Source: Desulfosudis oleivorans
GTDB taxonomy: Bacteria > Desulfobacterota > Desulfobacteria > Desulfobacterales > SURF-7
Assembly: GCA_020723325.1 (NCBI GenBank)
Contig: DYJD01000010.1
Coordinates: 62,001-126,000, forward strand
Reading direction: 5' to 3'
DNA: 64,000 nucleotides
Every line of letters begins with the position of its first letter. The first letter of the stretch is position 1. Under the pieces are notes generated by a model. It worked only from the letters and a program-made list of their open reading frames with translations, searched no databases and had not been told where the DNA came from. The translations under genes were made by a program, and so were the position numbers. Below are positions 1-3,958 of the stretch, in pieces.

Positions 1-38
1 CCGCCTTGATTAAAGAGGCGGGTTCGGGTTTTTTTGTG
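1..38 (+). terminator. Rho-independent terminator of an upstream gene
   Basis: The window opens with inverted hexamers CCGCCT and AGGCGG around a short A/T-rich loop, followed by a run of seven T. It would end a plus-strand gene lying before the window and separates it from the small peptide gene that follows. Confidence 0.7.
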
Positions 39-74
39 GACAACTGTAAACACCAAACAAAAGGAGAAATCATC

Positions 75-179
75 ATGAAGAAAATGAAAATCATTTCCTA
101 CCGTCGTCGTTGCCGTAAAATCGGAACCGGCTTGTCCCATTACATCCTGCTTGCGCCCCAAAAAGCAGCTAAAAAGTAA
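75..179 (+). CDS. 34-aa Arg/Lys-rich peptide, probable RiPP precursor (CbpA-like)
   Basis: A 34-codon gene begins at ATG 75 after a clear AAGGAG ribosome site and stops at 177-179. The peptide starts MKKMKIISYRRRCRK and continues with GTGLSHYILL, ending AAKK. It has one cysteine (residue 13) inside an Arg/Lys cluster, two tyrosines and one histidine. It has no leader of the double-glycine type and no membrane segment. Only 12 bases separate it from a radical SAM/SPASM peptide-maturase-like gene, the usual layout of a ribosomally made, post-translationally modified peptide. From memory it resembles the precursor called CbpA, paired with the enzyme CbpB in Desulfobacterota; I could not check this. 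The modification and the function of the product are unknown. Confidence 0.7.
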   Translation: MKKMKIISYRRRCRKIGTGLSHYILLAPQKAAKK

Positions 180-191
180 AGAGGGAAATCC

Positions 192-1610
192 ATGTTCACT
201 GCTCAAGAAGCAAATGCAGACAGCCGGAATATACGTTATGCCAATACCGGTTATGGCCCCAATCTGGCGGTGTTGGATGTGGGGCTGGCGGATAAAGTCG
301 CGGTGGTGGAGGCGGATACAGCCTTCTGGGCCCTGGTGGAAAAAGACGCCATCCAGGAGGCTTTGGCCGGTGAGTTGGTGCACGGTTTTCAGGTCCGGGC
401 TGCGGAACTCCAAGAGGAGATGGCGCATCTGCGTTTCGGTCTGAAGCCTTCCGCAGTGTATCTGAATCCCACGGATCGCTGCAATTTCAACTGTTCTTAC
501 TGCTACCTGCCGGCGGAAATGCGCGCCGAAGGCAAGACCATGACGGCAGAGGAATTATGCGCGGTGTTGGGACAGTTGGCCGTTTTTTTTACGGAAACCC
601 TGCCGCCGGCGACCAAGCCCCAGATCATTTTCCACGGCAGCGAGCCGTTGCTGGCCCGGCAGGCTGTGTTTGCAGGTATAAGCTGCTTCAGCGACATTTT
701 TCATTTCGGCTTGCAGACCAATGCCATGCTGCTGGATGATGACGCCATTTCCTTTTTGAAGGAACATGGGGTAGGCATCGGCATTTCCCTGGACGGGCCC
801 ACGGCGGAAATCGCCGACCGTACCCGCAAAAACTGGGGGAATGAAGGCGGTTTCAGCCAGGTTACGGCGGTGATGGAAAAGCTTGCGGATTATCCGGCCT
901 TTAATGTGATCACCACCGTCACGGCCGCCAATGTGCGGACCTTGCCGCAGATGGTTGATTTTTACCATCAGCATGGAGTGAAAACGGTCATGTTCAACCC
1001 GGTGCGTTGCACCCAGGCCGGTGGGCGGGAATTGAAGCCGGACAATGCAGAATTGGCCCATTATTTTTTCCAGGCCCTGGATAAAACCTGGGACTACTAT
1101 GAAAAAACCGGCCAAAAACTAGTCGTGGCCAATTTCGCCAATGTCCTGGCCGGCATTGCCGGGCCCACCAGCCGGCGTCTGATGTGCGACATCTCGCCCT
1201 GCGGCGGGGGCCGGTGCTTTTTTGCCGTCTCCGCTGCCGGCGATGTTTTCCCTTGCAGTGAATTCATCGGTTTTGATGAATTCAAGGGCGGGAACCTGCA
1301 TGCGCAAGATCTTGGCACCATATTGGTCTCCAAACCGTTTAAAGATGTTGTTACCCGCAGGATCGAAAAAATCGTGCCCTGCGGCAACTGCGTGATCCGT
1401 CATTTCTGCGGGGCCCCCTGCCCGGCAGAAGTAAAGGCGGTATACGGAACCCTGGATGCACCCAGTCCCTATTGTTCCTTTTATGAGGAGCAGGTGCGCT
1501 ATGCCTTTCGCGTAATTGCCGCCGGCCGGGAAGAGGCTTATCTGTGGGATGGGTGGCGGGAGGAAACGGAAGAGGTGCTGAAACAGAAGGGAGCTGAAAC
1601 AAGTGACTAA
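192..1610 (+). CDS. Radical SAM/SPASM peptide-modifying enzyme (CbpB-like)
   Basis: This 472-residue protein has the radical SAM [4Fe-4S] motif CNFNCSYCY (Cys97, Cys101, Cys104) after an unusual 90-residue N-terminal region that could act as a precursor-recognition domain. The C-terminal third is cysteine-rich (CDISPCGGGRC, then FPCSEF, VPCGNC, HFCGAPC and a last Cys near residue 440), which fits a SPASM domain holding auxiliary [4Fe-4S] clusters. Such enzymes make radical-based crosslinks or other changes in short peptides. The start at ATG 192 has a GAGGGA ribosome site, and the gene lies 12 bases after the 34-aa peptide, so the two are probably co-transcribed. I think it belongs to the family named CbpB, but that name is from memory. 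A sulfatase-maturase-type enzyme is the alternative; no sulfatase is nearby. Confidence 0.78.
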   Translation: MFTAQEANADSRNIRYANTGYGPNLAVLDVGLADKVAVVEADTAFWALVEKDAIQEALAGELVHGFQVRAAELQEEMAHLRFGLKPSAVYLNPTDRCNFNCSYCYLPAEMRAEGKTMTAEELCAVLGQLAVFFTETLPPATKPQIIFHGSEPLLARQAVFAGISCFSDIFHFGLQTNAMLLDDDAISFLKEHGVGIGISLDGPTAEIADRTRKNWGNEGGFSQVTAVMEKLADYPAFNVITTVTAANVRTLPQMVDFYHQHGVKTVMFNPVRCTQAGGRELKPDNAELAHYFFQALDKTWDYYEKTGQKLVVANFANVLAGIAGPTSRRLMCDISPCGGGRCFFAVSAAGDVFPCSEFIGFDEFKGGNLHAQDLGTILVSKPFKDVVTRRIEKIVPCGNCVIRHFCGAPCPAEVKAVYGTLDAPSPYCSFYEEQVRYAFRVIAAGREEAYLWDGWREETEEVLKQKGAETSD

Positions 1611-2908: not shown

Positions 2909-3958
2909 ATGCTGTCTCAAGATAAAGCCGATCAGCCGATTGTGGGCGGACGGTTGCGCCGTCATTTTATTCTGTTGGCCTTGGCTTGGACTATTGCCGT
3001 GGGTCTCTCCTTGTGGTGGAGCATCAGCCGGCAACAACTGGAACTGGAGGAAATGGCGCGTCTCAGTGCCCGGGTGGCCTTTGAAAAGGATGTGATTTAT
3101 CGACGCTGGAACTCTGAAAACGGCGGGGTATATGCCGTGGTCTCCCAACAGATTCAGCCCAATCCCTATCTTGATCCGGAAGAGCGCGACATCGTAACCC
3201 CTGATGGCAAGCACTTGACCCGCATAAACGCCGCATATATGACCCGCATCATCCATGAGATGGCCGAAGGGCAATATGGGCTTAAGAGCCATATCACCAG
3301 CCTGGACCCCATTCGTCCGCAAAACGCCCCTGACCCCTGGGAGAAAAACGCCCTGGTTCATTTTGAAAAGGGCGGCCGGGAATACAGCGAGATTCAAGTC
3401 ATGGAAGGCAAAGAATACATGCGCTTGATGCGGCCGTTGATCACCGAGAAGAGTTGCTTTCAATGTCATTCGGAAAAAAGATATCAGGAAGGTTCCATCC
3501 GCGGCGGCATCAGCATTGCCATTCCGCTGGAGCTTTTGCAGACCTTAAAAAAATCGACCTACTATGGTCTCATGGGCCTGCATGCTCTGGTGTGGGGCTT
3601 GGGACTGGCCGGCATCGGTACAGTGGGCCGCCGGTTGAAGCAAGAGCTGGCGTATCGCAAACAAATTGAGACTGAACGTATTCAACGGGAACGCTTGGAA
3701 GGAGTGCTGGAAATGGCCGGAGCGGTTTCCCATGAATTGAATCAGCCCCTGCAGGCCATTCTCGGATATGCGGAGATCGTATTAATGCACAAGGAACTAG
3801 CAGATCCCCTCAGGCTTAAGCTTGAAAAAATTGTTGAAAAAATCGAGGAACTGGGGGCCATGAGCCAAAAAATCATGAAAATCACCCGCTATGAAACCAA
3901 ACCATACCCAGGCAAACGCCACGTGATCGATATTGAAAAGGCATCTACAAAGGAATGA
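2909..3958 (+). CDS. DUF3365 haem-c sensor with HisKA domain but no ATPase domain
   Basis: The 349-residue protein has a membrane segment at residues 18-40, a periplasmic DUF3365 (Tll0287-like) sensor domain with one haem-c motif CFQCH (183-187), a second membrane segment at about 219-240, a short coiled coil, and a HisKA dimerisation domain with H-box VSHELNQPLQAILGY (His275). It stops about 75 residues after the H-box, at IEKASTKE, and no HATPase_c domain follows in any frame. It therefore cannot phosphorylate itself by the usual route. It may be a substrate of another kinase, or may heterodimerise with one. The domain end is clean, with no sign of a frameshift. It probably senses redox state or a small ligand such as NO through the haem. 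Confidence 0.8.
   Translation: MLSQDKADQPIVGGRLRRHFILLALAWTIAVGLSLWWSISRQQLELEEMARLSARVAFEKDVIYRRWNSENGGVYAVVSQQIQPNPYLDPEERDIVTPDGKHLTRINAAYMTRIIHEMAEGQYGLKSHITSLDPIRPQNAPDPWEKNALVHFEKGGREYSEIQVMEGKEYMRLMRPLITEKSCFQCHSEKRYQEGSIRGGISIAIPLELLQTLKKSTYYGLMGLHALVWGLGLAGIGTVGRRLKQELAYRKQIETERIQRERLEGVLEMAGAVSHELNQPLQAILGYAEIVLMHKELADPLRLKLEKIVEKIEELGAMSQKIMKITRYETKPYPGKRHVIDIEKASTKE

Follow-up and report, generated by a model that had tools for sequence, protein, structure and literature searches.

A cobalamin riboswitch and an intrinsic terminator precede two adjacent genes, cbpA and cbpB, in the stretch of Desulfosudis oleivorans DNA analyzed here (the window, 64,000 nucleotides). We interpret the riboswitch-cbpA-cbpB unit as a B12-repressed two-gene RiPP module that serves cobalt or corrinoid supply, a reading that, taken as a whole, we consider probable but only just. 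The gene pair, its conservation, the riboswitch with its terminator, two cases in which the pair lies inside a B12 operon, and co-occurrence with B12 synthesis are all features that can be read from genome sequence.

The first gene, cbpA (75-179, + strand), encodes a 34-residue precursor peptide, MKKMKIISYRRRCRKIGTGLSHYILLAPQKAAKK. Its ribosome-binding site, AAGGAG at 61-66 (+), was read from the sequence, and similar sites lie 5' of nearly all of its relatives. After a gap of 12 bases, with a purine-rich ribosome site before each gene, cbpB follows at 192-1610 (+), the arrangement described in the original prediction. The sole NCBIfam match of the peptide is TIGR04164 (CbpA), at 31 bits (E = 1.2e-7), short of the cut-off of 35. 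Among ten cbpB-linked peptides from other loci, two passed this cut-off and eight scored below it, indicating that the cut-off is narrow and that most CbpA peptides of this pair would go unannotated. Because they are both short and under the public model's cut-off (9 of the 11 CbpAs scanned), such peptides are overlooked by gene finders, as had been anticipated. The window peptide is a CbpA homologue by synteny and by its invariant core, both read from sequence, and not by the TIGR04164 model.

A single CbpA carrying the motif RxxC...GL[SA]H[YF] lies 5' of cbpB in all 52 loci that have upstream sequence, the window's own included, indicating that cbpA is not a chance open reading frame. Absence of the peptide beside related enzymes, which would have refuted the original prediction, was thus looked for and not found. 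The conserved core, R10xxC13 ... G19-L20-S21-H22-Y23 (102-143, +), was defined from an alignment of 50 distinct peptides, a comparison that had been proposed as a check and that yields five invariant positions: Arg10, Cys13, Gly19, Leu20 and His22. Ser21 is kept in 49 of the 50, and position 23 is Tyr or Phe in every one. The core is also present in the two CbpAs that pass the TIGR04164 cut-off. The five invariant residues are encoded by two to six synonymous codons each, and this change of codons under constant residues shows that selection acts on the peptide itself. The segment GTGLSHYILL, singled out from the window alone, proves to be the conserved core. His is invariant, and one Cys per peptide is present in 48 of the 50 peptides (two in the remainder), at a spacing of 5, 6 or 7 to the GL pair. 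The Arg/Lys richness of the window peptide does not extend to the family, since net charge among the 50 peptides ranges from 0 to +11. In a model of CbpA read through in frame into CbpB, residues 6-13 of the peptide, in its leader, are predicted to form a strand, a point in favor of the proposed reading; disorder of the core in the same model counts against it. The two genes share a reading frame in the window locus (75-1610) and in its close relatives L010, L011, L012, L014, L016, L018 and L023; the frames differ in L013 and L019-L022, so the shared frame is most likely a coincidence or a product of shared descent.

The product of cbpB is a radical SAM/SPASM peptide maturase of 472 residues. 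It matches TIGR04163 at 668.1 bits (cut-off 375), with residues 25-451 aligned to positions 1-428 of the 428 in the profile, so the family names CbpA/CbpB and the accession given in the original prediction were correct. The radical SAM and SPASM features named there were recovered as Radical_SAM (PF04055, 59.5 bits) and SPASM (PF13186, 27.2 bits) domains, both above cut-off. The radical SAM motif, C97xxxC101xxC104 (480-503, +), is invariant in the CbpB alignment, as are the cysteines of the SPASM region (1185-1475, +; Cys 332, 337, 342, 355, 397, 400, 406, 410 and 428), which was compared with CteB and anSME. Two auxiliary clusters are predicted from this sequence pattern. CbpB has all of the SPASM cysteines plus C332, and C342 occupies a position at which CteB has no cysteine; for this reason a full set of ligands is probable for auxiliary cluster I, and the thioether mechanism of CteB is not simply transferable to CbpB.

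An AlphaFold2 model of CbpB (pLDDT 82) has CteB as its nearest fold, followed by anSME and ChlB; residues 24-444 align with CteB 2-448 over 377 residues (Z = 33, rmsd 3.3 Å). The N-terminal domain (approximately residues 22-85; 255-446, +), delimited from the model and the alignment to CteB, consists of three strands followed by two helices and occupies the place of the CteB N-terminal domain, which is a leader-binding RRE. That the CbpB domain is likewise an RRE is an inference; a profile comparison (hhalign) with one PqqD gave no match.

In the absence of mass spectrometry data, modification of CbpA by CbpB is inferred, and we regard it as very likely. We propose that CbpB, probably through the N-terminal domain, binds CbpA at its conserved I-x-Y/I-R leader, and that a 5'-deoxyadenosyl radical together with the two auxiliary Fe-S clusters would then introduce a crosslink in the C13...GLSHY core. 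The bond itself is likewise inferred. A crosslink involving Cys13 is the single most likely modification, a tentative assignment that we would not back against all others combined; a C-C crosslink at aromatic residues or some other radical change remains open.

Control of cbpAB by B12 is the best supported part of the reading, and we regard it as nearly certain. The riboswitch (RF00174, 68.0 bits against a gathering threshold of 31.5) lies at 61814-61952 of contig C85 in the window's own genome, wholly upstream of the window, whose first base is 62001 of that contig; its 3' end sits 48 bases ahead of that base. It was therefore out of sight of the original prediction, and it offers the strongest pointer to function. 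A terminator hairpin straddles the window edge, starting 8 bases before it and ending with its 3' part at 1-35 (+). Direct folding gave a stem of about 14 bp (-26.4 kcal/mol) followed by a run of seven T residues; an automated terminator scan had missed it, probably because loops were limited to 3-8 bases. A cobalamin riboswitch precedes cbpA in 47 of the 50 loci with enough upstream sequence to be tested, and in all 47 the riboswitch is separated from cbpA by a hairpin resembling a terminator, with a T-run. Two of the 52 loci were too short for the test: L011, where a partial match is cut off (30.8 bits), and L020, with fewer than 150 bases. The window's own genome carries only five cobalamin riboswitches in 7.2 Mb, so the association with cbpAB is not due to chance; two of the other four stand ahead of a TonB receptor and a gene of the CbiA type, as judged by reading of the ORFs.

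The direction of control, with B12 turning cbpAB off, is an inference from the layout of the terminator. With ample cobalamin, the riboswitch would let the terminator form and transcription would end before cbpA; when cobalamin is scarce the terminator would be released and both proteins made. A short ORF between a riboswitch and an enzyme gene might also be a mere leader of a riboswitch attenuator and no substrate at all. We find this hardly credible, since the terminator comes before cbpA, conservation falls on residues rather than codons, and the L167 and L168 pairs lie inside an operon with no riboswitch directly before them.

These last two loci account for two of the three riboswitch exceptions, and in both the pair lies within a B12-biosynthesis operon, flanked by cbiC on one side and cbiX-cbiM on the other. 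In L168 (genome G524) the gene order is a BtuB-type TonB receptor, a cobD/cobQ fusion, cobA, cbiA, cbiC, cbpA and cbpB, followed by cbiX, cbiM, a small gene in the place of cbiN, a ThiC-family gene, cbiQ, cbiO and cbiD; a riboswitch precedes the receptor gene by approximately 0.2 kb. L167 (genome G702) is parallel, with cbpAB between cbiC and cbiX-cbiM-cbiQ-cbiO-cbiD. Some of the names in L168 are weaker than others: the receptor, CobA-type and CbiC-type genes score under equivalog cut-offs, the small gene in the cbiN place has no family match, and the ThiC-family gene matches ThiC better than BzaB. L168 (1-17001) and L167 are long anaerobic B12 operons. The cobD-cobQ fusion in L168 is a single protein of 857 residues, and a parallel match occurs in L167 and L169. 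In three further genomes (L162, L169 and L159) no more than 8 kb separates cbpAB from genes for B12 synthesis; in L162 the pair and a TP_methylase-cbiC-cbiA cluster with its own riboswitch are divergent. In L190 a CbiK chelatase and an FecCD permease follow cbpAB, behind a second riboswitch. The position of cbpAB inside a B12-making operon in two genomes suggests a modified peptide that helps cells to get or to build vitamin B12.

The distribution of B12 genes among genomes points the same way. CbiD is present in 37 of 40 genomes with cbpAB and 14 of 40 without (Fisher p = 9e-8), or, counted by family, in 15 of 16 versus 12 of 31 (p = 4e-4); CobS is present in 39 of 40 versus 26 of 40. None of these comparisons was corrected for phylogeny. 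CbiM was uninformative as a co-occurring gene (39 of 40 versus 30 of 40). In two genomes with cbpAB, G146 and G093, CbiC and CbiD are missing and TP_methylase hits number only two, yet CobS and the riboswitch-cbpAB unit are retained. The module can therefore persist without corrin-ring synthesis, which speaks against a role confined to cobalt insertion. If these absences are real and are not assembly gaps, they point to a use for the product outside ring synthesis, for example in corrinoid uptake or late steps.

Besides G146 and G093, a further point against the proposed reading is the third riboswitch exception, L156, on a Methylovirgula plasmid, which has neither a riboswitch nor B12 genes nearby. 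In one alternative, the modified peptide acts as a signal or as a B12-sparing factor, adjusting or replacing a B12-dependent process during shortage rather than aiding synthesis or import. Riboswitch control alone would fit this alternative, and so would retention of cbpAB in two genomes without ring synthesis and the fact that most cbpAB loci are stand-alone two-gene units. It is nonetheless unlikely in our judgment, because the strong co-occurrence with CbiD, and in two genomes a position within a cbi operon beside a chelatase and a cobalt transporter, point to supply and not to replacement.

A role for the product in cobamide supply is an inference, which we hold with modest confidence. The small product would aid in restoring supply by binding or carrying cobalt or corrinoids, or by assisting a late corrinoid step. 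The two invariant donor residues, Cys13 and His22, fit a metal or corrinoid ligand, and a cobalt chaperone, a cobalophore or a corrinoid carrier built around them is possible; with no binding data, this remains speculative. Another proposal, which we consider improbable, is that CbpA matures into an enzyme-type redox cofactor, like PQQ or mycofactocin, for one corrinoid step such as cobalt reduction before adenosylation. In its favor are the SPASM maturase and, in contrast to bacteriocins, a strongly conserved core, together with cobA in the same operon in L168; however, the loci share no conserved dedicated protease, additional maturation enzyme or dehydrogenase, and Tyr23 and Ser21 are replaceable.

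Of the genomes sampled, 11 of 389 from the class and 36 of 395 from the phylum carry a CbpB orthologue above cut-off. Named genomes with an orthologue include Desulfacinum, Desulfoferrobacter, Syntrophobacteraceae MAGs and the one Methylovirgula plasmid. Beyond synteny among close relatives, no third conserved gene was found at cbpAB loci. Nor do the loci share a conserved transporter, immunity gene or protease, a result that weighs against CbpA being a bacteriocin or other secreted antimicrobial. Many members are indeed short cationic peptides with a radical SAM maturase, but the charge falls as low as 0, the core is nearly invariant across families and the genes are under B12 control, and we give this alternative very little credence.

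Spread of the pair by phage or plasmid was considered and rejected: there was no phage match, one plasmid, and only distant relatives in viral contigs. On the plasmid of Methylovirgula sp. HY1 (L156, 5804-7383), cbpAB lacks a riboswitch, and a Crp/Fnr regulator and a pqqA-pqqD-pqqE set come after it. In the window, a palindromic, internally repetitive intergenic element composed of TCACTTTAG-type units (1597-1735) begins within the last cbpB codons. The element has more than 20 dispersed matches in its own genome. One of them, C85:61664-61722, lies a short distance ahead of the riboswitch, so that cbpAB is flanked by copies. Convergent with cbpB is a gene for a NapH/NosR-like membrane ferredoxin (1724-2854, - strand; Fer4_5; TIGR02163 at 75 bits, below cut-off). 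The ORF at 2909-3958 (+) combines a Tll0287-like sensor with a HisKA domain and stops shortly after the latter, without a reported HATPase match, indicating a truncated or atypical sensor kinase.

CbpA/CbpB is already a named pair, and thus not a new gene family. A literature search returned no paper on CbpA/CbpB or its B12 link, and the B12 control and operon placement described here were not found in the literature searched; subscription journals were poorly covered, so prior knowledge is not excluded. Text matches to 'cbpa' and 'cbpb' were journal DOI codes and not the genes, and the passages considered from general papers on RiPPs, B12-radical-SAM enzymes and riboswitches do not mention the pair. 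The NCBI short name 'cobopep' may allude to cobalamin, and the B12 link may already be known to the family's curators. RiPPs have mostly been studied as antimicrobials. Direct B12 control, and a position among methylmutase and chelatase-transporter genes of an operon in two lineages, turn a named pair without a known product into a testable hypothesis. If it is true, the pair would yield a RiPP devoted to supplying vitamin B12, adding an overlooked component to anaerobic B12 synthesis or salvage.

Comparison with known systems places the pair most directly in TIGR04163/TIGR04164, a family with no known product or reaction: CbpB is a clear member (668 bits), and the window CbpA shares the family core and gene order although it falls below the peptide cut-off. 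Among solved structures, CteB of the SCIFF system (CteA/CteB; PDB 5WGG, 5WHY) is closest in fold to the whole CbpB chain, N-terminal domain included, and SCIFF likewise combines a small peptide that does not resemble a bacteriocin with an adjacent SPASM maturase. The SCIFF precursor, however, has six Cys in about 45 residues whereas CbpA usually has one, CteB lacks the extra auxiliary-cluster Cys, C342, and assignment of CbpB as a SCIFF (six-Cys) maturase was rejected on score (TIGR03974, 97.4 bits versus a cut-off of 425). Methanobactin is a RiPP of metal acquisition whose expression is tied to metal. Its likeness to CbpAB is a functional analogy only, as it is made by other enzymes, has no radical SAM maturase and has dedicated transport genes, while no metal binding has been shown for CbpA. 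Cobalamin riboswitch operons share the RNA family (RF00174) and the terminator-type layout; elsewhere these riboswitches adjoin btuB or cbi genes, whereas at cbpAB loci the target is not a transporter, a pathway enzyme or a B12-independent isozyme, but a peptide and its maturase.
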